From a virus: DNA of 28,999 nucleotides. Position 1 is the stretch's first letter; each line of letters starts with the position of its first letter. Positions 3,110 to 28,999 of this stretch are shown here, piece by piece. Made by a program: the position numbers and the translations under genes. The DNA lies in the IMG/VR virus record IMGVR_UViG_3300031707_000126, positions 1-28,999 of that record. One strand, given 5' to 3'. The notes below the pieces were generated by a model. That model was not told the DNA's origin and made no database searches. It saw only the letters and a program-made list of their open reading frames with translations.

Positions 3110-3336
3110 TGCGGACTGGACATCATCTCAGTCAGACGGATTTGGCCAAAAGATTGCAAATCAGTCCAAATTATCTTTACATGATTGAAGCTGGCATAAG
3201 GTTGCCTTCGATATCCGTGCTTCAACGGTTTAGCGTTGCCTTCGAAATGAATTTGCAGTTTCTTAAACAATACTACCTGAACGATTATTTAACCCAAGTC
3301 GAGATAAAAATCAAAAGAAAATTAGAGATCACTTAA
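3058..3336 (+). CDS. XRE-family transcriptional regulator
   Basis: Encodes 92 aa with an HTH over residues about 11-65: LPRLIRMMRTGHHLSQTDLAKRLQ, then ISPNYLYMIEAGIRLPSIS and helix VLQRFSVAFEMNLQFLKQY. A start at the internal ATG 3106, which would give a neat ATGA overlap with the previous stop, would delete the first helix of the fold, so 3058 is preferred although its ribosome binding site is weak. The basic tail may contact DNA. It converges on the integrase gene with an 8-nt overlap. Confidence 0.75.
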   Translation: MEKFSLRSSRLPRLIRMMRTGHHLSQTDLAKRLQISPNYLYMIEAGIRLPSISVLQRFSVAFEMNLQFLKQYYLNDYLTQVEIKIKRKLEIT

Positions 3337-4183
3337 TAATCATCTGGTCAAGGGTCTTCTCTGCCTCCCTCTGGCCATCCCTGTCTATACCCTTCATGTA
3401 GTGGTCATAGATGGTTTTGGTTGAATTACCGGCCATCTCTGCAACCATGGCTGGATCAAGTTTTAACGATCTAATCATTCTACCTATGATGGTATGACGG
3501 AATGTATGGGACCCCCTGCCTTTTGGATCAACACCTAATCGCTCAAAGATCTGCAAAATACGACGGAATGCAGTCCTTTTTGAAATTCCAAGAATCGTCC
3601 CGCTTACCTTGCAATATCCCTCGATGTCGGATTTGATTACCTCTGGTATAGAGAGTATGCGGGTCTCTCTATTCTTGCTTTGTTTGATGGTAATCGTGTT
3701 CGATATGAAGTCTATATCTGAGGGCTGGAGTTTGATTAACTCCCCTATTCTCATGGGTCGAGTCATGAGGAGATAAAAGATAACCTTATCAATCCCTTCA
3801 AGTTTGTGGGCCTTCTTCATCATAGAAGCGATTTCAGATTTGGATAAATCCTTCTGTGGAGCCCTTGGAATATCGGCTGGTCCCTTGTACGGTATTGGAC
3901 CAATGCTCGAAATTGTACCCCTTTGATAGAGAAAGTTCAAAAATACACTAATAAAAATCTTGTGTGTCTTTTTGGACGAGGTTCTAATTTCTAACTGGTT
4001 CAGATAGGAAATTACGTCATCCCGTGTGACTTCTCCGATATCCGTCCTTCCCATCTTTTGCTCGTATTCAAGGAATCTTGATAGGACCGATCTCATATTC
4101 GATAGTGTGTTGGCGGTGGGATGTCGTTCGGCAATATAGGATTCGAAAAAGGCTTCCAAGATACCATTAAGTTTTGTTTCCAT
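3329..4183 (-). CDS. int: Tyrosine recombinase (phage integrase)
   Basis: Encodes 284 aa, a normal length. Residues 1-95 form a SAM-like core-binding domain; the catalytic domain has R145 in MRIGEL, the H226-x-x-R229 box in HTFRH, and the nucleophile, most likely Y259, in TKTIYDHY. The position usually held by His or Trp upstream of the nucleophile (as in LAGHS) is Asn in MAGNS, a tolerated but less common variant. It lacks the long N-terminal arm-binding domain of lambda Int and is closer in size to XerC/D-type enzymes. It likely integrates the element, and could also act on the inverted repeat 1.6 kb away. Strong AGGAGG ribosome binding site. Confidence 0.9.
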   Translation of the reverse strand: METKLNGILEAFFESYIAERHPTANTLSNMRSVLSRFLEYEQKMGRTDIGEVTRDDVISYLNQLEIRTSSKKTHKIFISVFLNFLYQRGTISSIGPIPYKGPADIPRAPQKDLSKSEIASMMKKAHKLEGIDKVIFYLLMTRPMRIGELIKLQPSDIDFISNTITIKQSKNRETRILSIPEVIKSDIEGYCKVSGTILGISKRTAFRRILQIFERLGVDPKGRGSHTFRHTIIGRMIRSLKLDPAMVAEMAGNSTKTIYDHYMKGIDRDGQREAEKTLDQMIIK

Positions 4184-4964: not shown

Positions 4965-7900
4965 TTACCTCCTTTCTACGGTCTGTATAGTCTCTTGGCA
5001 AAAAAATAGTTCCATCTGCTTCTCGTCTTTTTTGGCTTCATGATTATGGTTTCGATTAACTTCATGATATAGGGTATTCCACTTTCCGTTGGACTCTGTT
5101 TTGACTACAACTGGGCTCAATTTAGGCTCCGGTTCGGTTATTGCCGCTTCCCCTTTCTCGTACTCAAATTCAACGGGGTCTTCTTCCTTCCCTGTCATTG
5201 CCTTTGCGATTGCAAGATAATCCCCTCCTGCCCTCAATACATTGGCCGTTCTCCCGAACCTTACCCGTCCGTCAATGGCATTGGAGATAGCTCGCTTCTT
5301 TTGCGTGATAAGATTATACATTTTAAAATCAATGTTTTGTTCTTCTGGTGTCCAATCGAGCAAAAGATAATAACAGGTTACGGGTTTCTCCTGGCCTGTC
5401 CTGTGTGCTCTGTCCTCGGCTTGGTCTGTACTTTCCGGTGAATATTCGACATCGGTAAAGATAACATGGTTGGCAGCATTGATCGTGAATCCTCGGTTTA
5501 GGACGTTCAGGCCTGCCACTATTGCGGTGATGTTGGGGTCCTCCTGAAATCTTTTGATATTTTTGAATCGGTCTTTGGTCTGCATGGTAGAGGGTACAAA
5601 AATATGATTAATCCCCCTATTCTCAAACGATTTGTGCAGGGTCGCTTGCATATCTCTGAGTGCTGAGTAAACCAGAACCTTTTCCCCTTTGGCCCTGGCC
5701 TCTTCAACGATCTCAATAGCCTTTCTGACCTTAACATTTGCCTCTGGTGCGATTCTCGGAATGGTGGCGGCGAATCTCATAGACCATAGGGCTTTGCTGA
5801 TTACTCCCATGTTTACCTCTGTTTCTGGTTTCCTTAACTCTCTGTCGATCATTTCTTCTGCTTTCTCGACCGCGATCCCGTATTCGGTTACGTGTCCCGG
5901 GTCCGGCGGAAGTGCAAGTATTCTTCTGTGTTTCTCTGGGAGTTTAATCATTTCGTCTTTCAATCTTCGGATGGTAAAGGACGAAAGAATTTTCCAAAAC
6001 CTGTTAAGATTTGACACCTCTGGTAATTCCTTCTTTCTCCCCTTGTGAAGCGTGGTTTCAAATTCAATGTCCTTAAATTCGAATGTCGAAAACTCCTCGG
6101 CAAAAATCTTACTCCCTCTCCTGTCAAATCGGTAAGGGAATAGCGGGTTATTGTGTCTGGTGATGTATCCGATGTTGAAGAATGTGTCGGTGATATATCC
6201 CTTCATTAAAGTACCTGTCAATTCAAGTCTTGATTTGGCATGGATGGAGCGGACGGCCTGACCTCGGAATGAGGTTTTACTTTTTGCCTGCTGGACCTCA
6301 TCAATGATGACAGATCGAAACAGTTTTTTGATACGTTTATATGCGGGATACTGCTTAATCGACTCTTTCGATGAATACTTATAAGCGGAATACCCACACT
6401 TCGTACAGTTTTCACCTGTCCACTCTTCCTTAACCTTGCATTTTGGACATACTTTTTGAGTCGAGGCATATTCGGTCGAACATCCCTGACAGACCCGGCT
6501 GGTGTTGCCGTGTACCTCATGTTTAATATTTCCATCCTGGTCATACTTGATGCAGCTCCAGGGATCATAAACTCTGCCTGTATCAAGGGAAAGAAATTCA
6601 TATGATGTGATGTAAAAGTTCGTTCCTTCCCGTGTATCCCCTCGTTTGATGGATTGCTGTAAGAGGTCAATGGCATGGTGGGTTGTTAGTCTGACCGTTC
6701 TAAATCCAAACTTGTTGGCCTCGTTAATCCAGTTATCCACCAATGAGGACTGACAAATCACAAGGACCCGCTTGACATTGCGGATCGCATTAAAGACAAA
6801 TGAACAGAGCGTCTTTCCCCCACCCATATCGTAGCCTATGTATGCGCTTTTTGTTTTAGTAAGGACTCGGGCCAAATCCTCGGCTTGGTAGTCAAAATCT
6901 CCTGATAAGGCTGGATATTTCTTGATGATTTTATCTTTCCATTGCTTGACCAGTTCGGGTTTTTCTTCTGAAATGTCTCTCACTTCCGGTAAATGAAATG
7001 CCTCAAGGAATAGAGCTACTTCTAAGGGTTCGGGTTCCCTAAAGGCCCGATTCCCTAATTCTGTTTCTGCTTCGATTGATAAAAATCCCCGATCGATGGA
7101 CGTTGTGATAGTTTTCTGTTGATTGCCTTCCCCTATGACATTTATTCCCGTGACCTCTGATTGTCTAACCCATGAGGGCCTGATTAGATACTGCTTCCCT
7201 TTTTTAAAGAGCAAAAACTGTTTTCCATTCTTCCCATTCTTTCCATTGTCCCGGTGATCCTGTCTATACTTCCCCTCCTCTACCTCATCATAGACGTCTG
7301 CCCTGGCGATGTATTCTCTTTCGTCGAAATAAGCCAAAAGCTGATGATCCTTTGGCGGATAGAGCGGGATCGAGAGCAACTTAAACTTCTCCTTTAGGAC
7401 CTCGATTTTCTTACGTGTAGCGTCACTGATTGTCAAGTCAAAACCTAATTGCTTCAGTACCTGCCCTGCCCTGTCAACTCCCCTCTTACAGAGTGCGGGA
7501 CTTTCAAGGTAGGCTTCGGTTAGTCCGGTGGGTCTACCAACTACCGGATTATAGAAGTCCAGAGTATCATTGTAAAAATCCATCATGGCAAGTGCGGTCG
7601 GGTCTCCCCTCACTCCCCTTGCGGTAATTTCCACATTATTTATGGTGTTTATTTCAACGAGGTTGTCGAGGTAGGGAACATCGATTTCTGAATCTGAGAG
7701 GGCAAATCTGTCAAATCCTTCTCCTTTAACTGTAGACCAAGCATCTAATATCTTCTTCTCAAGAAGCGGGTCATTGGCGTCAATCTCAATTTCTCTGAAT
7801 CCTGATGAACAGTGATGGTCATAACGGTTCACCCTGCAAACCACTAAATCGACCTGGACATCGATTTTATATTCATCCTTAAATAGTCCATTAATGGTGA

Positions 7901-8507
7901 CTCTGAAGAGGACTTTAAAGTTCTTATAAAGGTATTGCCTTAGACCGGCATCTTTTGTGTTAGTAAAAGACGATGTTGGAATAATGGCGAAGAGATAGCC
8001 GTGATAGTTTAACGCTGCTTTACAGATTTGGATCGTTGCATTTTGGCTCTCAATGTTCTTAGCATAGGATAAACCGTCCTCAAATTCAAAGTCGGTCTCT
8101 TCCTGGTTCCAGAGAATCCCAAAGGGCGGGTTGGTGACGGCTATATCAAAATCTCCTTTTAGGTGTTTGGCATAGTCAAGGATACTGCCTGTTCTTACAG
8201 ATTCACCTCCTAACAACTGTTTTGCCTTCGATGATATCTCTTTATCCAGTTCGATCCCTAAAACCTTGGCTCCTTGCCTCTTAAATGGATAGAGAAGTCT
8301 TCCGGTTCCACAAGTCGGGTCAAGGACTTTTAACTTTTTTATGAAATCATTGCTTGGTAGGCAATTAACCACCATAGCGAATAAAACATTCGCCAGTTTC
8401 ATGGGAGTCAGATATCCTGCGTGTTTACTTTTGGACCACAAGCGGAAATTTAAATCCTTATTGGCTTCCCGTCCAGAGTCGTCAAGTATGGTCTCGGGTT
8501 CGGTCAT
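4965..8507 (-). CDS. DNA N6-adenine methyltransferase fused to an SNF2-type helicase (DarB-like)
   Basis: Encodes 1180 aa. Residues about 25-235 are a gamma-type N6-adenine methyltransferase: SAM motif VLDPTCGTG (61-69) and catalytic NPPF (126-129). Residues about 545-1060 are a superfamily-2 SNF2-like helicase: Walker A GGGKT (562-566), motif II DEVQ (736-739), and motif VI QAEDRAHRTGQ (1029-1039). Between motifs I and II sits a zinc insert with C673, C676, C687, C690, C701 and C704. No nuclease motif is visible, so this is not a complete Type I or ISP restriction enzyme. Phage methylase-helicase fusions such as P1 DarB protect injected DNA from restriction; that is the favoured role, a strand-modifying chromatin-like remodeller the alternative. 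GGAGGG precedes the ATG. Confidence 0.85.
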   Translation of the reverse strand: MTEPETILDDSGREANKDLNFRLWSKSKHAGYLTPMKLANVLFAMVVNCLPSNDFIKKLKVLDPTCGTGRLLYPFKRQGAKVLGIELDKEISSKAKQLLGGESVRTGSILDYAKHLKGDFDIAVTNPPFGILWNQEETDFEFEDGLSYAKNIESQNATIQICKAALNYHGYLFAIIPTSSFTNTKDAGLRQYLYKNFKVLFRVTINGLFKDEYKIDVQVDLVVCRVNRYDHHCSSGFREIEIDANDPLLEKKILDAWSTVKGEGFDRFALSDSEIDVPYLDNLVEINTINNVEITARGVRGDPTALAMMDFYNDTLDFYNPVVGRPTGLTEAYLESPALCKRGVDRAGQVLKQLGFDLTISDATRKKIEVLKEKFKLLSIPLYPPKDHQLLAYFDEREYIARADVYDEVEEGKYRQDHRDNGKNGKNGKQFLLFKKGKQYLIRPSWVRQSEVTGINVIGEGNQQKTITTSIDRGFLSIEAETELGNRAFREPEPLEVALFLEAFHLPEVRDISEEKPELVKQWKDKIIKKYPALSGDFDYQAEDLARVLTKTKSAYIGYDMGGGKTLCSFVFNAIRNVKRVLVICQSSLVDNWINEANKFGFRTVRLTTHHAIDLLQQSIKRGDTREGTNFYITSYEFLSLDTGRVYDPWSCIKYDQDGNIKHEVHGNTSRVCQGCSTEYASTQKVCPKCKVKEEWTGENCTKCGYSAYKYSSKESIKQYPAYKRIKKLFRSVIIDEVQQAKSKTSFRGQAVRSIHAKSRLELTGTLMKGYITDTFFNIGYITRHNNPLFPYRFDRRGSKIFAEEFSTFEFKDIEFETTLHKGRKKELPEVSNLNRFWKILSSFTIRRLKDEMIKLPEKHRRILALPPDPGHVTEYGIAVEKAEEMIDRELRKPETEVNMGVISKALWSMRFAATIPRIAPEANVKVRKAIEIVEEARAKGEKVLVYSALRDMQATLHKSFENRGINHIFVPSTMQTKDRFKNIKRFQEDPNITAIVAGLNVLNRGFTINAANHVIFTDVEYSPESTDQAEDRAHRTGQEKPVTCYYLLLDWTPEEQNIDFKMYNLITQKKRAISNAIDGRVRFGRTANVLRAGGDYLAIAKAMTGKEEDPVEFEYEKGEAAITEPEPKLSPVVVKTESNGKWNTLYHEVNRNHNHEAKKDEKQMELFFCQETIQTVERR

Positions 8508-14270: not shown

Positions 14271-14314
14271 CAACTATCAAGAAAAAATAGGCAGGTATTT
14301 TTTTACCTTTTGAC

Positions 14315-14331
14315 TATACGGATTGTATAAA
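14315..14331 (+). promoter_or_regulatory. Palindromic operator TATACGGATTGTATA with promoter -10
   Basis: TATAC and GTATA are perfectly inverted around five bases. The right half contains the -10-like TATAAA, with TTTACC about 18 bp upstream as a possible -35. Transcription would begin near 14338, right at the foot of the long hairpin that follows. Confidence 0.5.
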
Positions 14332-14808: not shown

Positions 14809-15004
14809 ATTATTCTCTGAAGAGCGTCTATGTAAAGCCTTGGGAGTTTCTGAGGGAACACTTTACGGGCTCAGAAAGAAGGGGTGTCCATGGGTTGAGT
14901 TGGGTGGTAAACCATTCTATTACGAACCTGAATTTATGGCGTGGTTACGCAAAACCAAAACGAAGAATGCGGGAGGGATCAATGGAAAATCAGACCAAAA
15001 ATAG
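14783..15004 (+). CDS. Excisionase/MerR-like HTH protein
   Basis: Encodes 73 aa. The sequence [46 protein letters not shown] fits the winged HTH of excisionase-type phage proteins (HTH_17), where the turn motif [13 protein letters not shown] leads into the wing. It has GGGGAGAAAG before the ATG. Roles include excision, terminase small subunit or simple regulation; its distance from the integrase makes an Xis role less certain. Confidence 0.7.
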
Positions 15005-15641
15005 ATTTACGGGTGAGGTGATTTGTACTGGAGACATAGATATTAAGAAATTAATTGAGGAAAATAAGGCCGACCTATCGGGAGCCGACCTATCGGGAGC
15101 CGACCTATCGGGAGCCGACCTATCGGGAGCCGACCTATCGGAAGCCAACCTGTCGAGAGCCGATCTGTCGGGAGCCGACCTATTGGGAGCCAATTTATCG
15201 GGAGCCGACCTATCGAGAGCCAACCTGTCGAGAGCCGATCTGTCGAGAGCCAACCTGTCGAGAGCCGACCTGTCGGATACAAGAGGTCTTATCAAAACAA
15301 TAGGTGTTGAGATCGGAAATATTTACTGGAAACGTTTTGAATCTGGATTAAACAATCAAGGATATCAATATCACATCGGTCTGAATACATTACGAGAGGG
15401 AGAAGTCTTTGCTTCCGATGAACGGATAGCATGTAGTTATCCGGGTTTTCACTTCGCTTCTCGGTCGTGGTGTGCCGTCAATTTTCCCAATCGACCATTG
15501 GAGGCTAAAATCCGCATCCCGGAAGGTGCAAAAATCAATGAACCGTGGGTAACCGATGGGAAGGCCAGTGTAGATATAATCGAAATCCTCCAGGTTTTTG
15601 ATGTGGCTACCGGAAAAGATGTAACAGACGATTACAGATAA
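14982..15641 (+). CDS. Pentapeptide-repeat protein with a C-terminal domain
   Basis: Encodes 219 aa; the ATG at 14982 has GGGAGGG upstream. Residues 30-99 consist of 14 perfect A(D/N)LxX pentapeptides, which would fold as a right-handed quadrilateral beta-helix of about three and a half turns. Residues 100-219 form a separate domain with [25 protein letters not shown] and a final [14 protein letters not shown], seen in phage-encoded pentapeptide proteins but of unknown role. Such helices can mimic DNA and protect gyrase; this one is short, so an anti-restriction or structural role remains open. Confidence 0.8.
15069..15278 (+). repeat. 15-bp tandem repeat, 14 copies (pentapeptide-coding)
   Basis: The unit GCCGACCTATCGGGA and variants are repeated without interruption. 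The first four copies are identical, showing recent expansion; later copies diverge to AACCTGTCGAGA forms. The reverse strand also lacks stops, giving a spurious ORF. Confidence 0.95.
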
Positions 15642-22884: not shown

Positions 22885-24789
22885 ATGCCTTACCGTGAGA
22901 TCGTTCCCAAAGACATGATGCCCTTTATGGCGACGATGATGAACTCGTTAAGTAGAGACTATTCGCTTACATTTGCTGAACGGGCGACCAAATATCTTCG
23001 ACACAATGGGCAACCGGTGCAGTTCAGGGGGTACGAATGGCAGATCGGTATTCTGAACGATTTTCACCCGAGACAAGCAATACCTAAACCTTCGCAGGTA
23101 GGAGCAACCCAGGTCATCCAATGGAAGGTTATGTTGTTCGCTGACCAATACGCCTTCATGCCCTTCTTCTATAAATCCGATGAAGGGGTAGAAATGGCGC
23201 ACTATCCGACCGTGATTTATACGTTGGAAAGTGACGACAAGGTTGGTGAATATTCGGCTGATAGACTTGGTGGTTTCTTTAGAGATAATCCGTACTTTGA
23301 CTCCTTGCTTTCCGAAGGTGAGGTTGACCAGGTTAGGTTAAAGAAGTTTGGCCGGACGGCTGTTTATTTTGGTGGTAGAAAAACTGTCTCATCTGTCACA
23401 ACTGTTCCGGGTGATATTGTGATCTGTGACGAATGGGACAGGACATTTGAGATTGATGTAGGTGAACAGATCCCTTCCAGACTCAGGCACTCTCCAATGT
23501 TTAGAAGTAAGACCTATCGGGGAATGATGATTAAATTTTCCAGTCCAGAGATGGAGAATTTCGGGGTTACAAAAGAATATGAGGAATTGTCTGACCAGCA
23601 CGAATTTATGGTGAAATGTTCGCATTGTTCCCATTGGCAAACCATGATTTACCCAGACTCAATTGCGAACTGGTATGAGAAGGGACAACCACCCTCTTCC
23701 GATCTTTATTACATATGTCTTGCCTGCCACCGTCCCCTTGATTGGAGTGTAATCGGGGGATGGAAGTCCAGCGAACCCAATGTCACCCATAACTGTGAAT
23801 GGGTGCCGAAACGAAAAGAATTTTATGAAACGGTCACCCGTTATGGTGAGGGTGTTAGGGGTTATCGCATTCCATGGGCGTATTCGAGACCCGTCCATGA
23901 GATCATGACAGAACGGGATGGAAATTCGGTTCGATACTTCCATCACCATGTTCTCGGCATTCCTTACGAGGACAAGAAGTCGGGTCTGAACTCCGCACTC
24001 TTTAAAACCTTTCCCGTCTGTGTATTTGGGTATGAACCTGGTTATACCTATATCGCCGGTATAGACCAGGGGGCTTACGTATGCGTATGGAGATACATTC
24101 CGAACTCTCGGGGCGATCTTGCACCGATCGGCAGATGGGAAATCGTTCATGTCGAATTTACGCCTGATGAGTTGGCCTTTAAGACTTTTCAAACCGTAGA
24201 TGGTCAAATCTCGGTAAGGGAAGGAAGAATCTCGCAAATCTTGAAGCAATTTCATTGTGAACTTGCTGTCTGTGATGCGGAACCATCTGGTAACGATGCA
24301 TCCAATCTTCAGAAGGATTTTCCTCGAACCGTCTTTGTTAACCACTCCACAAGGATGAATATTGACGATCCTTCTTTGGGGTTTAAATGGGTAGATGAGG
24401 AAAAGGATCCGGGTGGACAGTCAATCTTTGTCGGTAGGATCTCTGAGGATAAGACAGGAGCCTTTGATGCCTACTCCGACTTTCTTTATCAAGGATATCT
24501 GGCGATGCCTCAACAGGAAGCGGAGGAAGTGATCGGCAAGATGATTAGTCATCACCTCAACCTGAAACGGACGATCAGGGAAGAAAAACAAACGGTAGGC
24601 AAGACCAGATCGACGAGAAAGGTTCAGTATGAAACCATTTGGTATTCAGTGGGGCCGGATCATTATGCCCACGCTAATAAGTTTGCATTTCAGGCGGCAA
24701 GTTTAATGTGGCGACTTGGAAGGATGAACTATACGTCCCTGGTGACGGACACAAAAATCAGTGGCGTGAAATGGCCGGAAAGGAAATAA
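22885..24789 (+). CDS. terL: Phage terminase large subunit (GpA family)
   Basis: Encodes 634 aa, full length for GpA-type TerL. The ATPase domain has the Walker A-like K68-P-S-Q-V-G-A-T75 and Walker B with DE at 182-183 in GDIVICDEWDRT. A zinc site C245, C248, C278, C281 sits between the domains, a feature of GpA relatives. The nuclease domain begins with YIAGIDQG (D394) and contains CDAEPSGND (D464). It drives packaging of DNA into procapsids and cuts concatemers. The gene is not truncated. No portal gene follows within the window. Confidence 0.95.
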   Translation: MPYREIVPKDMMPFMATMMNSLSRDYSLTFAERATKYLRHNGQPVQFRGYEWQIGILNDFHPRQAIPKPSQVGATQVIQWKVMLFADQYAFMPFFYKSDEGVEMAHYPTVIYTLESDDKVGEYSADRLGGFFRDNPYFDSLLSEGEVDQVRLKKFGRTAVYFGGRKTVSSVTTVPGDIVICDEWDRTFEIDVGEQIPSRLRHSPMFRSKTYRGMMIKFSSPEMENFGVTKEYEELSDQHEFMVKCSHCSHWQTMIYPDSIANWYEKGQPPSSDLYYICLACHRPLDWSVIGGWKSSEPNVTHNCEWVPKRKEFYETVTRYGEGVRGYRIPWAYSRPVHEIMTERDGNSVRYFHHHVLGIPYEDKKSGLNSALFKTFPVCVFGYEPGYTYIAGIDQGAYVCVWRYIPNSRGDLAPIGRWEIVHVEFTPDELAFKTFQTVDGQISVREGRISQILKQFHCELAVCDAEPSGNDASNLQKDFPRTVFVNHSTRMNIDDPSLGFKWVDEEKDPGGQSIFVGRISEDKTGAFDAYSDFLYQGYLAMPQQEAEEVIGKMISHHLNLKRTIREEKQTVGKTRSTRKVQYETIWYSVGPDHYAHANKFAFQAASLMWRLGRMNYTSLVTDTKISGVKWPERK

Positions 24790-27148: not shown

Positions 27149-27321
27149 CAAGGATAACCGGGCATCTCGGTCCTAAAGAGATAAAAGAAATAAGAGTTTA
27201 TTGGGTAAAGAAATTTGATGCCAAATGTCCTTATTGCGGGGCTTCGATTAAGAAATTTGGAAACCAAATAAAAGACGACTTATTCCATTGTCGGAAGTGT
27301 AGAAAGTATCACACCCTGTAG
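27145..27321 (+). CDS. Zinc-ribbon protein (58 aa)
   Basis: Encodes 58 aa with two Cys pairs, CPYCG and CRKC, separated by about 18 residues, a compact zinc ribbon. The stop codon lies inside the first hairpin of the structured RNA that follows. It may bind that RNA or DNA, but this is only a guess from position. Confidence 0.65.
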   Translation: MTRITGHLGPKEIKEIRVYWVKKFDAKCPYCGASIKKFGNQIKDDLFHCRKCRKYHTL

Positions 27322-27500
27322 GACAGGGGCGGGTGGTCTCTCTTAGGAGAGCGGGGGGTTTTCGGAGAACCGAGGGAGCGGAGGGAAAAAGGCCAATGCA
27401 TCGAGGGTATTCGATGCGTCCAAAAGGAATACTATCCGAATGGCAAGTAAGCGAACCTGGACATTGGCCGATTAGTTGATGGGACCCTCCGGCCACCTGC
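27314..27500 (+). ncRNA. Highly structured RNA; candidate HEARO/omega-RNA-like element
   Basis: No ORF spans this region and the bases form nested perfect helices. In order: hairpin CCCTGT/ACAGGG (27314-27328); long-range stem GCGGGTGG (27329-27336) with CCACCTGC (27493-27500); hairpin CTCTC/GAGAG (27338-27351); hairpin GGTT/AACC (27357-27371); stem CGGAGGG (27379-27385) with CCCTCCG (27485-27491); stem GGCCAATG (27391-27398) with CATTGGCC (27462-27469) holding hairpin CATCGA/TCGATG (27399-27416). The nested architecture, size and the AGTTGATGG near the 3' end recall HEARO (the guide RNA of IscB), as far as I remember it. No iscB follows; an M14-type peptidase does. HEARO identity is inference; strong structure is seen directly. 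Confidence 0.75.
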
Positions 27501-27524
27501 TCATAATTCAAGGATTTAAATAAG

Positions 27525-28298
27525 ATGAAATCCGTTAATATTTTCTATAAACGACTCTTTACGGTAGCATCCAACAAGAAACTTTGGTTACGGGTGTTGG
27601 GGGAAGTGGGGAATTATCCAATATGGTTTCTATCAAATCAGCATGGATATAGAGCAAAATCTCCCCGATTATTAATGGTGGCTGGTATGCATGGTGAAGA
27701 GATAGCTGGCCCGCTATCTATTATAAAATGGCTGGAGGAATTTGATCCACAACTATTTTATTCGTTTAATCTTTCTTTCATCCCTATTATTAATCCGGTG
27801 GCGTATCAATTGGGTCGAAGATACAATTTAAAAAACGAGAAGTCAAATTGCGGTTTTTATAACACCAAGGCTTCGGGAGATAAACCGTCAGAAGAGGGTA
27901 TCATACTTCTTAAAAACCTACCCCTACTAAAAGCATGTTCCCGCGATGGATTTTTATCGTTACATGAGGATATTACCTCATCGAAATATTATGTTTACAC
28001 TTTTGAAAGAACAGATGCTCCGGGTCGTTTTACAAATGAAATGCGGAATACGTTGGCTGGATTTTTCACCGACCCCTTAGATAATGAGTTGGTAACGGTA
28101 GATGCTCTCGGCGGACACGGGGTTATGGTAAACAATGGTATTGTATATAAATTAGAAGATGGAAGTTTGGAACATTGGTTATTCACCGAGGGAACTGTCC
28201 GTGTAGCCGTGACTGAGACACCTGGTAAGTTTAAACTTAACGAAAGAGTGAAGGCTTCGATGGCATTGATCGGGAAGTTTATCGAGTTATGTCTATGA
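27525..28298 (+). CDS. M14-like zinc metallopeptidase / deacylase
   Basis: Encodes 257 aa. The zinc site is H56-x-x-E59 in GMHGEE and H147 in SLHED; the catalytic glutamate would be in AVTETPGKF near the C-terminus. NPVAYQLGRRYN in the middle matches the substrate-binding Arg-containing segment of succinylglutamate desuccinylase/aspartoacylase-like M14 enzymes. The substrate could be a murein peptide (MpaA-like) or an acylated small molecule; no signal peptide is present. It starts 24 nt after the structured RNA and overlaps the next gene by 10 nt. Confidence 0.75.
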   Translation: MKSVNIFYKRLFTVASNKKLWLRVLGEVGNYPIWFLSNQHGYRAKSPRLLMVAGMHGEEIAGPLSIIKWLEEFDPQLFYSFNLSFIPIINPVAYQLGRRYNLKNEKSNCGFYNTKASGDKPSEEGIILLKNLPLLKACSRDGFLSLHEDITSSKYYVYTFERTDAPGRFTNEMRNTLAGFFTDPLDNELVTVDALGGHGVMVNNGIVYKLEDGSLEHWLFTEGTVRVAVTETPGKFKLNERVKASMALIGKFIELCL

Positions 28299-28564
28299 AT
28301 AGAGATCCTACAAAAGAAGAACTTAAAAAAATTGAGAAATGGTCCGCAAAAGACTGCTCTGGCCTGATGGATTTTATTCATGGCATCTGGGAATATGCCG
28401 ACTGCGGTTACTGGGTCCAGAAGGACAAGATATATAATATTTCAACCGGAGGATGGAGCGGTAACGAAGACATTATGGGGGCATTGGAAAGGAATTGGAT
28501 GTTTTGGATACTATGTTGGCAAGAATCGAGGCGAGGGGGTCATTATATTTTTCATGTCAAATAA
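28289..28564 (+). CDS. Hypothetical protein, cassette-type, upstream of an attC-like site
   Basis: Encodes 91 aa. The motif STGGWSGNEDIMGAL followed by MFWILCWQESRRGGHYIF is a compact conserved core of a family of hypothetical proteins that I recall from mobile gene cassettes. The stop codon TAA lies at 28562-28564, inside the first attC-like half site. Family function unknown. It overlaps the peptidase gene by 10 nt, so it is joined to the phage operon. Confidence 0.65.
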   Translation: MSMNRDPTKEELKKIEKWSAKDCSGLMDFIHGIWEYADCGYWVQKDKIYNISTGGWSGNEDIMGALERNWMFWILCWQESRRGGHYIFHVK

Positions 28565-28640
28565 CGCCAAGGGTGAGGCGGCGAGAATATAACGCAAAGG
28601 TCAGCGGCGCTCCTGGGCGTCCGCTGGAGTGATTTTTTAT
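28561..28640. other. attC-like site (attC1) preceded by a left-half remnant
   Basis: Two related left halves lie in tandem: ATAACGCCAAGGGTGAGGCG (28561-28580) and ATAACGCAAAGGTCAGCGG (28589-28607). The second continues as an imperfect hairpin, CAGCGGCG ... CGTCCGCTG, with one unpaired T in the right arm. The right end GATTTTTTAT lacks the GTT core seen in attC2, so the site may be inactive. Its place at the stop codon is that of integron cassettes. Confidence 0.6.
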
Positions 28641-28656
28641 CTTTTTAGGAGGCTCC

Positions 28657-28845
28657 ATGAGATACATTTGGGAAATTGGGAAGAATCGACGGGTAATGCA
28701 CATCCAGAAATTTCCCCCAACTGGCGAAACAATGCCCATAATAGCTCTCTGTAAAATTGGACATAGATTCAATCGCTCAATCAATGCTCCTTGGGCATTA
28801 GGGCGAAAGATCTGCAAACGATGTGAGAAAATTGTTTACACATAA
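28657..28845 (+). CDS. Small cassette-type hypothetical protein
   Basis: Encodes 62 aa with TAGGAGG before the ATG. It has CKIGHRFNRSINAPWALGRKICKRCEKIVYT: one early Cys and a final C-x2-C that may bind zinc; NRSINAPWALGRKIC is a conserved-looking core that I associate with cassette-borne hypothetical proteins. The stop codon TAA at 28843-28845 begins the attC2 site. Flanked by attC1 and attC2, it forms a compact cassette-sized unit. Function unknown. Confidence 0.6.
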   Translation: MRYIWEIGKNRRVMHIQKFPPTGETMPIIALCKIGHRFNRSINAPWALGRKICKRCEKIVYT

Positions 28846-28899
28846 CGACTGAGTTAAGCGGCGGTGCTTTGACCGTCCGTCTTGAACGATTGGTTATAT
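28841..28899. other. attC-like site (attC2), integron recombination site
   Basis: ATAAC (28842-28846) pairs with GTTAT (28893-28897) as the outer core, matching RYYYAAC/GTTRRRY at six of seven positions each. Inside, GTTAAGCGGCGG pairs with CCGTCCGTCTTGAAC, leaving T76, T80 and G84 (28876, 28880, 28884) unpaired; loop TGCTTTGA. The parts TAACG-CTGAGTTAAGC and CTTGAACGA-TTG-TTA match, as I remember it, the reverse complement of the aadA-type attC. Orientation by the unpaired bases is therefore opposite to the flanking genes. Confidence 0.7.
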
Positions 28900-28924
28900 T
28901 CCCGCCGACGGGGGTTGACTTTTT

Positions 28925-28999
28925 ATGAATTATATTTGTGTTTCAGGTGGTGCTGATTCTACGGCAATGGCTCTCCTTGCATGGGAACAAGGGGAAAAA
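28925..28999 (+). CDS. PP-loop ATP pyrophosphatase, N-terminal fragment
   Basis: Only the first 25 residues lie in the window, MNYICVSGGADSTAMALLAW..., which runs off the end. SGGADST is the PP-loop (SGGxDS) of adenylating ATP pyrophosphatases: QueC (deazaguanine pathway), PAPS reductases, TilS and related phage enzymes. It starts 26 nt after attC2, so it may be another cassette gene or the next phage gene. With the radical SAM, deoxyribosyltransferase-like and Nmad1-like genes upstream, a nucleotide-modification role is conceivable. Confidence 0.7.
   Translation, partial: MNYICVSGGADSTAMALLAWEQGEK

Follow-up and report, generated by a model that had tools for sequence, protein, structure and literature searches.

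Reversal of cassette genes relative to their attC sites is usual in the virus contigs that we examined and unusual in the bacterial genomes that we examined. The window, by which we mean the whole stretch of DNA analysed, is an IMG/VR virus record of 28,999 bases that ends within a row of small + strand genes, and there the genes and the predicted recombining strand of the neighbouring attC sites coincide. Arrays of attC sites in phages are already known; what appears new is the systematic reversal, which extends further than the initial annotation supposed, to many viral arrays and not one site. Neither systematic reversal nor cassette exchange between near-identical phages was found described in the open-licence text of PMC. 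The explanation that we consider likely is that a tailed phage carries an integrase-less cassette array served in trans by a host integrase, that cassettes with reversed genes are retained in it, and that the arrangement may bring an advantage at the replication fork.

Orientation of the attC sites

The hairpin at 28842-28897 on the + strand (attC2) is identified as a full attC site by its score of 41.9 bits (E 2.3e-7, 68,054 bases searched) with R1, a covariance model built from the bottom strands of 10 class 1 plasmid attC sites, with no sequence of this phage in it. The match is full length (model positions 1-66 of 66). In both sequence and fold, the outer stem pairs ATAAC at 28842-28846 with GTTAT at 28893-28897; inside it lie a 6-nt spacer (28847-28852) and a 5-nt spacer (28888-28892), both unpaired, and the inner stem begins with the pairing of 28853 with 28887 and continues inward. 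The order of the site is thus ATAAC, spacer, GTTAAGCGGCGGT, loop, ACCG-T-CCG-T-CTT-G-AAC, spacer, GTTAT. The extra bases are confined to one arm: T28876, T28880 and G28884, on the right arm of the + strand, are unpaired, as the initial annotation had noticed, and because they lie on that arm the + strand corresponds to the canonical bottom (recombining) strand. Judged by its sequence, attC2 is plainly of the aadA1 type, and equal to it in sense also; the plasmid aadA1 site in bottom-strand reading is TTAACGCTTGAGTTAAGCC...GGCTTGAACGAATTGTTAG, so that the likeness to the reverse complement of an aadA-type attC, proposed in the initial annotation, extends to both the sequence and the positions of the extra bases.

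The strand assignment was examined by scoring both orientations. With filters off, the - strand of attC2 scored 1.2 bits with R1, and the best - strand score anywhere in 28500-28999 was 3.4 bits, so the forward orientation did not give the better score. Since the genes neighbouring attC2 also lie on the +, the relation of gene to attC is the reverse of the canonical one, and the earlier claim that attC2 is inverted relative to its flanking genes stands. Folding of the two strands, which had been proposed as a check, confirmed the unpaired bases, but the single-strand folding energies of the + strand (-7.8 kcal/mol, z -0.84) and the - strand (-7.0 kcal/mol, z -0.17) did not separate the strands. 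A scan of the window with a hand-made pattern likewise left attC2 indistinguishable from many chance matches, and for this reason we relied on R1. The predicted crossover in attC2 lies between 28845 and 28846 (ATAA|C).

A second site, attC1 (28589-28640, +; R1 21.2 bits, E 0.015), has the same orientation as attC2, and its extra T is T28620. It has a degenerate right box, TTTAT instead of GTTAT, and its predicted crossover is between 28592 and 28593. In the related contig L002 the corresponding site (14277-14328) keeps its right box intact, and R1 gives it 31.0 bits. At E values up to 10, R1 found eight sites in the window (2), L002 (2) and a second related contig, L003 (4), every one of them on the + strand, with a best score in L003 of 45.2 bits; this model missed the right-hand site ATAACCATTGATTAAC and one site in L003, at 14397, that is visible on inspection. 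With at least two attC sites and no integron integrase over the cut-off, the arrays of these three partial, metagenomic records have the composition of a CALIN.

The constant left flank at 28565-28592 (+) ends in GAATATAA|C, and there one half of a 15-nt inverted repeat is found (28579-28593 with 28893-28907, 93 percent). The repeat joins the left flank of attC1 to the right flank of attC2, as if a similar cassette end stood on either side. To the left of the variable stretch, and within the stretch common to the window, L002 and L003, is a gene for 91 amino acids (28289-28564, +) whose TAA stop lies inside an ATAACG box at 28561-28566, possibly an older cassette end.

Cassette genes and phage context

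The cassettes are laid out as attC, ribosome site and gene, with the stop codon often within the following left box. The cassette gene at 28657-28845 (+) encodes 62 amino acids with one CxxC. AGGAGG precedes its start, and the TAA that ends it (28843-28845) falls within the left box of attC2. The protein had no Pfam or PHROG match and no relative among the viral contigs searched. Only the start of the next cassette gene (28925-28999, +) is present before the contig end cuts it; its 25 amino acids are PAPS-reductase / PP-loop-like (phrog_424, E 2.9e-4; PF01171, E 0.035, under its cut-off). The L003 array continues with further genes, for 53 aa, for a DNA methyltransferase, for a PAPS reductase, and for 76 and 91 aa, all on +, and beyond the array is a + strand portal gene (phrog_3753, E 2.5e-52). 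In the window, the packaging region on the left side of the array is marked by the gene for the terminase large subunit (22885-24789, +; phrog_675, E 1.8e-65; PF05876, E 1.2e-16), and another relative, L035, carries a major head protein gene on + (phrog_3922, E 3.4e-52). As assigned by these matches, the array sits between the terminase and portal genes of a tailed phage.

A gapped pattern of 32 specified bases of attC2 had no matches in viral contigs, and DNA searches found no match to 28570-28999 in the phage collection or to 27520-28999 in the plasmid collection. Rfam gave nothing at gathering score on the window. The segment 27318-27520 is GC-rich, with no clear gene and with possible hairpins; Rfam applied to 27250-27560 returned two weak matches, far under their cut-offs.

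Three other genes of the window may be mentioned here. The 445-aa protein encoded at 17677-19014 matches a phosphohydrolase family at residues 13-55 and deoxyribonucleoside 5'-monophosphatase at residues 308-441, and the approximately 230 residues between the matching ends start with C and end in HN-S, like an intein insert. A pentapeptide-repeat protein is encoded at 14895-15641, with a run of similar 15-nt units. On the - strand, 4965-8507 encodes a protein of 1180 amino acids with an N-terminal DNA methyltransferase match and a DNA helicase match.

Cassette differences among near-identical phages

The window matches L002 at 99.76 percent identity for 14,343 nt and L003 at 99.93 percent for 12,429 nt, and attC1 is where the two matches stop. 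L002 and L003 become alike again at the right-hand site, with 99.91 percent identity for 3,302 nt that takes in the portal gene. L035 agrees with L002 at 99.82 percent of positions in a stretch of 6,186 nt, but it has an L003 cassette and then the L002 cassette. On the right, 1,854 nt of L281 match L003 at 100 percent, and again the cassettes are different. Different cassettes thus occur in the window, L002, L003, L035 and L281 beside common flanks, as is expected of mobile cassettes. One further contig (L060/L279) has 125 nt of left flank in common with L035, cassettes in common with L003, and other sequence beyond; it need not be the same phage as this one. Its methyltransferase-like cassette has a perfect inverted repeat of 14 nt outside the boxes (L060 460-484 and 1021-1047), which would lengthen the attC stem in the excised circle.

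Pairwise comparison gave 17 junction rows. In eleven the break falls in the left box, within ATAAC(G) (ATAA|C), and unrelated sequence lies beyond; in two it is at the right box, and in four, representing two distinct cases, it is inside attC. Counted by hand, the non-redundant junctions number 13 (9 left box, 2 right box, 2 inside attC), because the rows L279/L281 and L003/L281 repeat each other, as do L002/L003 and window/L003 and the two L002/L035 rows, and the L002/L281 row can be derived from two others. In canonical attC sites the bottom strand is cleaved between AA and C of this box. The left-box breaks coincide with that point and so favor the + strand as the recombining strand; together with the R1 match they support the proposal, made in the initial annotation, that the + strand recombines and that the cassette is oriented opposite to transcription. 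The breaks at the right box and within attC are not predicted by simple bottom-strand action of an integrase, and suggest that some homologous exchange between attC repeats takes place too.

Copies of one right-hand site, ATAA|CCATTGATTAAC, have five different left neighbors joined to them. This site, ATAACCATTGATTAACAA(A/G)CCATTTTGCC...GCAAAACTA, is conserved while its left neighbors differ at ATAA|C, and it has neither a right box nor a full hairpin. It occurs twice in L003, with a gene in between (15033-15070 and 15280-15316), and in L002 (14785), L281 (1268) and L279 (1043); ATAACCATTGATTAACAA recurs in L079 (3992-4040) and L020 (1510-1556). There is no integrase beside it. It is a candidate for an attI-like site or an incomplete attC. 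Varied left neighbors at ATAA|C are what single-box sites might produce, and in this respect ATAACCATTGATTAACAA may be likened to the attG and delta-attI sites of integrons named in PMC12901181, as a resemblance only.

Conserved structure of viral attC sites

To describe structural conservation, we aligned 14 viral attC sites with MAFFT; they were picked from the 42 R1 finds of 50-52 nt for having one length and spacer, which places attC2 (56 nt) outside the set. In this alignment 96.4 percent of the 252 expected pair cells were paired, 9 of the 18 pairs had changed on both sides (compensating changes), and the covariation score was reached by none of 500 shuffles. The bulges are conserved and lie on one arm. 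From cassette to cassette the attC arms are near-identical. Pairing that extends past the boxes within a cassette was found in 12 of 106 viral cassettes (0.8 expected), in 28 of 103 in the second viral set (2.0 expected), in 91 of 217 bacterial cassettes among the matches listed (3.7 expected), and in 4 of 10 plasmid cassettes (0.75 expected). Such pairing supports the view that these would be cassette units and is silent on the strand.

Gene polarity in viral and bacterial arrays

To survey polarity, a pattern for the right arm was used to collect 80 IMG/VR stretches and at least 118 stretches from a genome collection, and R1 was run on 78 and 80 of these, respectively. Of the viral loci, L018 and L068 were left aside, being the contigs of L002 and L003, and the scan also took in L004 and the plasmid loci. 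The bacterial scan is represented by 300 of 405 matches, those listed, from which sites of at least 26 bits were used. From a further set of 61 stretches, the 56 new ones were put through the model scan. Mirror matches opposite a stronger site were left out, as were sites cut at locus ends (L104 1-113, L125 1-46), while L127 1-52 was kept. In the frame test, a reading frame had to occupy 60 percent or more of the interval between neighboring sites and to stop no more than 25 nt from the next box. All tests skipped neighboring sites that were on different strands. Spacing was limited to 120-1500 nt for the frame test, the second pattern and the ribosome-site test, with repeated cassettes counted once, and to 60-2500 nt for the length test. 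The survey patterns derive from one attC family, and the viral status of contigs is that given by IMG/VR.

The frame test classified 98 viral cassettes as 42 reversed, 3 canonical, 15 both and 38 neither, and 202 bacterial cassettes, among the matches listed, as 7 reversed, 124 canonical, 16 both and 55 neither (Fisher odds ratio 248, p = 1.5e-29, with the bacterial side again among the matches listed). L035, the relative of this phage, contributed 3 of the 42 reversed viral cassettes. Counted by locus cluster, the viral set gave 25 reversed, 2 canonical and 11 ties, and the bacterial set, among the matches listed, 0, 29 and 10. The looser length test gave 55 reversed, 15 canonical and 31 unclear for viruses, 0, 10 and 0 for plasmids, and 18, 163 and 37 for bacteria among the matches listed. 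With the length ratio set to 1.3, all five intervals of the window, L002 and L003 came out reversed; when it was 2, three did and two were unclear. The stop codon lay inside the box in 33 of the 55 reversed viral cassettes and in 68 of the 163 canonical bacterial cassettes (the latter among the matches listed).

When only frames led by a ribosome site were considered, the 98 viral cassettes gave 52 reversed, 2 canonical, 3 both and 41 none, and the bacterial cassettes among the matches listed gave 19 reversed, 35 canonical, 4 both and 143 none, a weaker contrast. A second viral pattern, nearer to class 1 sites, yielded 111 cassettes, of which 29 scored as reversed and 21 as canonical, with 17 both and 44 neither. 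Twelve of those 21 canonical cassettes are on L257, L260 and L216, contigs that have an integron integrase, where the ribosome-site test has few cases to go on (2 canonical, 1 reversed, 13 none). When 53 proteins flanking 23 of the reversed loci were scanned in bulk, terminase, integrase, polymerase and helicase families were among those matched.

Phages annotated by others were also examined. Pseudoalteromonas phage H101 has four R1 matches (E 0.0009 to 0.12), all on -, and the annotated genes between them are on -, so that 3 of 3 intervals are reversed; in MW202573 four matches and the genes between them are all on +, and again 3 of 3 intervals are reversed. Since these genomes are also reversed and reversal predominates in the other viral arrays sampled, we rejected the idea that it is peculiar to this phage. 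Tetrasphaera phage TJE1, with two matches on - and genes on +, is canonical and is a counterexample to reversed polarity in phages. P12002L had no R1 match.

The published phage arrays are of the same kind. Qi et al. 2023 (PMC9892861), who reported attC sites in these annotated phages, describe integrase-less attC clusters in virulent, temperate and uncharacterised phages, and methyltransferase cassettes, report that 5 of 6 phage attC sites tested recombine with attI1 via IntI1, and call the TJE1 and PH101 cassettes alike in direction and typical for bacterial arrays. The array described here shares the lack of an integrase and the methyltransferase cargo with those CALINs; in our analysis, however, H101 (their PH101) is reversed and TJE1 canonical. 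The sections of that text examined describe neither a reversal between gene and attC nor cassette differences between near-identical phages (PMC9892861).

The attC sites resemble those of class 1 plasmid integrons in sequence, boxes, spacers and extra bases, but the plasmid integrons are canonical in 10 of 10 intervals and have intI1 beside the array, whereas the phage array is reversed and has no integron integrase over the cut-off. Chromosomal integron arrays have in common with the phage arrays rows of small genes between attC sites and stop codons within the box; unlike the phage arrays, they are canonical in 124 of the 131 decided cassettes among the matches listed.

Integrases

An intI beside the array, which would make a complete integron, was found in none of the window, L002 and L003 (partial records). 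The best match in the window to the integron integrase model TIGR02249, 42.7 bits against a cut-off of 265, is far from the array and belongs to a phage tyrosine recombinase (3329-4183, -; PF00589, E 1.4e-12), which we rejected as an integron integrase on that score. The partial records L002 and L003 had no integron integrase matches, and among 37 selected viral records of this phage or of reversed arrays, seven had weak matches and none exceeded the cut-off. Two further records that had been picked for an integron integrase, L257 and L216, are over the cut-off, and their cassettes are mostly canonical; IntI-like pieces occur in L226, L249 and L251.

Beside one reversed viral array, L081 has a tyrosine recombinase frame of 333 amino acids (106-942) in which 40 residues are 55 percent identical to IntI1. 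It is far under the integron integrase cut-off, and is a candidate for a virus-borne enzyme acting on reversed arrays.

Discussion

We propose that a host integron integrase, acting in trans, would fold and recombine the + strand, which corresponds to the canonical bottom strand, so that every insertion would put an attC ahead of the incoming gene. Cassettes in which the gene is reversed relative to attC would then be retained by selection, because their genes need to be read by the phage operon. The recombining strand would be the coding strand and, where genes run with the fork, the template of the lagging strand; exchange would thus be favored without transcription opposing replication. Richard et al. 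2024 (PMC11023631) report more excision when the bottom strand is on the lagging template. Sedentary integrons are reported to keep their bottom strands on the leading template, and when one was inverted excision rose sharply (PMC11023631). Relative to those sedentary chromosomal arrays, the reversed polarity of the phages would place the bottom strand on the lagging template when the gene runs with the fork.

The flanks of the viral loci agree with this proposal in part. In 14 of 23 reversed viral loci the recombining strand carries most of the reading-frame length in the flanks; in the other 9 the opposite strand does, which fits poorly there with joint reading by a flanking operon. An excess of G over C on the recombining strand was found in the flanks of 17 of the 23 reversed loci, the bottom strand is G-rich in 35 of 52 viral loci of the first pattern and 23 of 38 of the second, and to the left of the array in the window the + strand skew is about +0.15. 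The GC excess appears weakly in line with the lagging-template idea; the argument is weak because 25 of 49 bacterial loci, among the matches listed, also have a G-rich bottom strand and because gene direction alone can give such skew.

Exchange could instead proceed mainly by phage homologous recombination between real attC repeats of about 50 nt, which would then serve chiefly as short homologies for swapping modules, with the polarity carried over from the founding array. We regard this as unlikely, though it would account for the breaks inside the attC loop (4 of 17 rows, 2 distinct cases) and at the right box (2), for hybrid attC sites or a single attC before different genes at those breaks, and for the near-identity of attC arms among cassettes, and the 37 selected records with no integron integrase over the cut-off are on its side. 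It sits poorly with the 11 of 17 rows that break within ATAAC(G) and meet unrelated sequence beyond, with the joining of five left neighbors to copies of one right-hand site, and with the retention of extra bases and spacers for which homology has no need. A common stretch of 5-8 nt is little for homologous recombination.

Two other readings would dispense with cassette recombination or with the polarity difference itself. That the contrast between viruses and bacteria is an artefact of the search pattern, of ORF calling or of misclassified viral contigs is very unlikely: an identical pattern and pipeline gave the opposite result in bacteria among the matches listed, the second pattern still gave 29 reversed to 21 canonical of 111, with 12 of those 21 on contigs with IntI, and two genomes annotated by others (H101 and MW202573) agree. 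The derivation of the patterns from one attC family, the undecided viral cassettes (38 neither and 15 both of 98), the weaker ribosome-site result in bacteria (19 reversed to 35 canonical, among the matches listed), and a viral status that comes from IMG/VR, with a bulk check of 53 flanking proteins at 23 loci, are what speaks for it. We consider it very improbable that the hairpins are mainly RNA elements, such as terminators, processing sites or leaders between late genes, that came to resemble attC by convergence. Their position between genes, the identity of the folding + strand with the mRNA sequence and the ribosome site ahead of the gene in many cassettes would suit an RNA role; against it, scores against plasmid attC are as high as 41.9 bits for the window and 45.2 bits for L003, bulges are kept on one arm, cassette differences start at the boxes, and the window has no Rfam match at gathering score. 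Published phage attC sites, moreover, recombine with attI1 by IntI1, as reported by Qi et al. 2023 (PMC9892861).

The reading that we prefer, an integrase-less phage array with reversed genes served by a host integrase, has a wider corollary. Tailed phages may keep a reversed-polarity cassette pool of their own, apart from the bacterial one, in which the coding strand is the recombining strand, so that phage cassettes would be shuffled with ease and read from phage operons, and those crossing from one pool to the other would arrive antisense; the case for this is, in our judgement, close to evenly balanced. If it is true, the reversed cassettes of bacterial integrons (7 of 131 decided, among the matches listed) would in part be phage imports. 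Integron theory gives gene and attC one polarity, because a single promoter drives expression. Should reversal be systematic in phage arrays, polarity would be a marker for viral cassettes and a natural barrier between the viral and bacterial cassette pools, and the phage arrays would offer a test of the idea that exposure of a strand at the fork sets the recombination rate. Near-identical phages with differing cassettes would be a natural record of viral cassette exchange, in which the cargo includes DNA methyltransferases.
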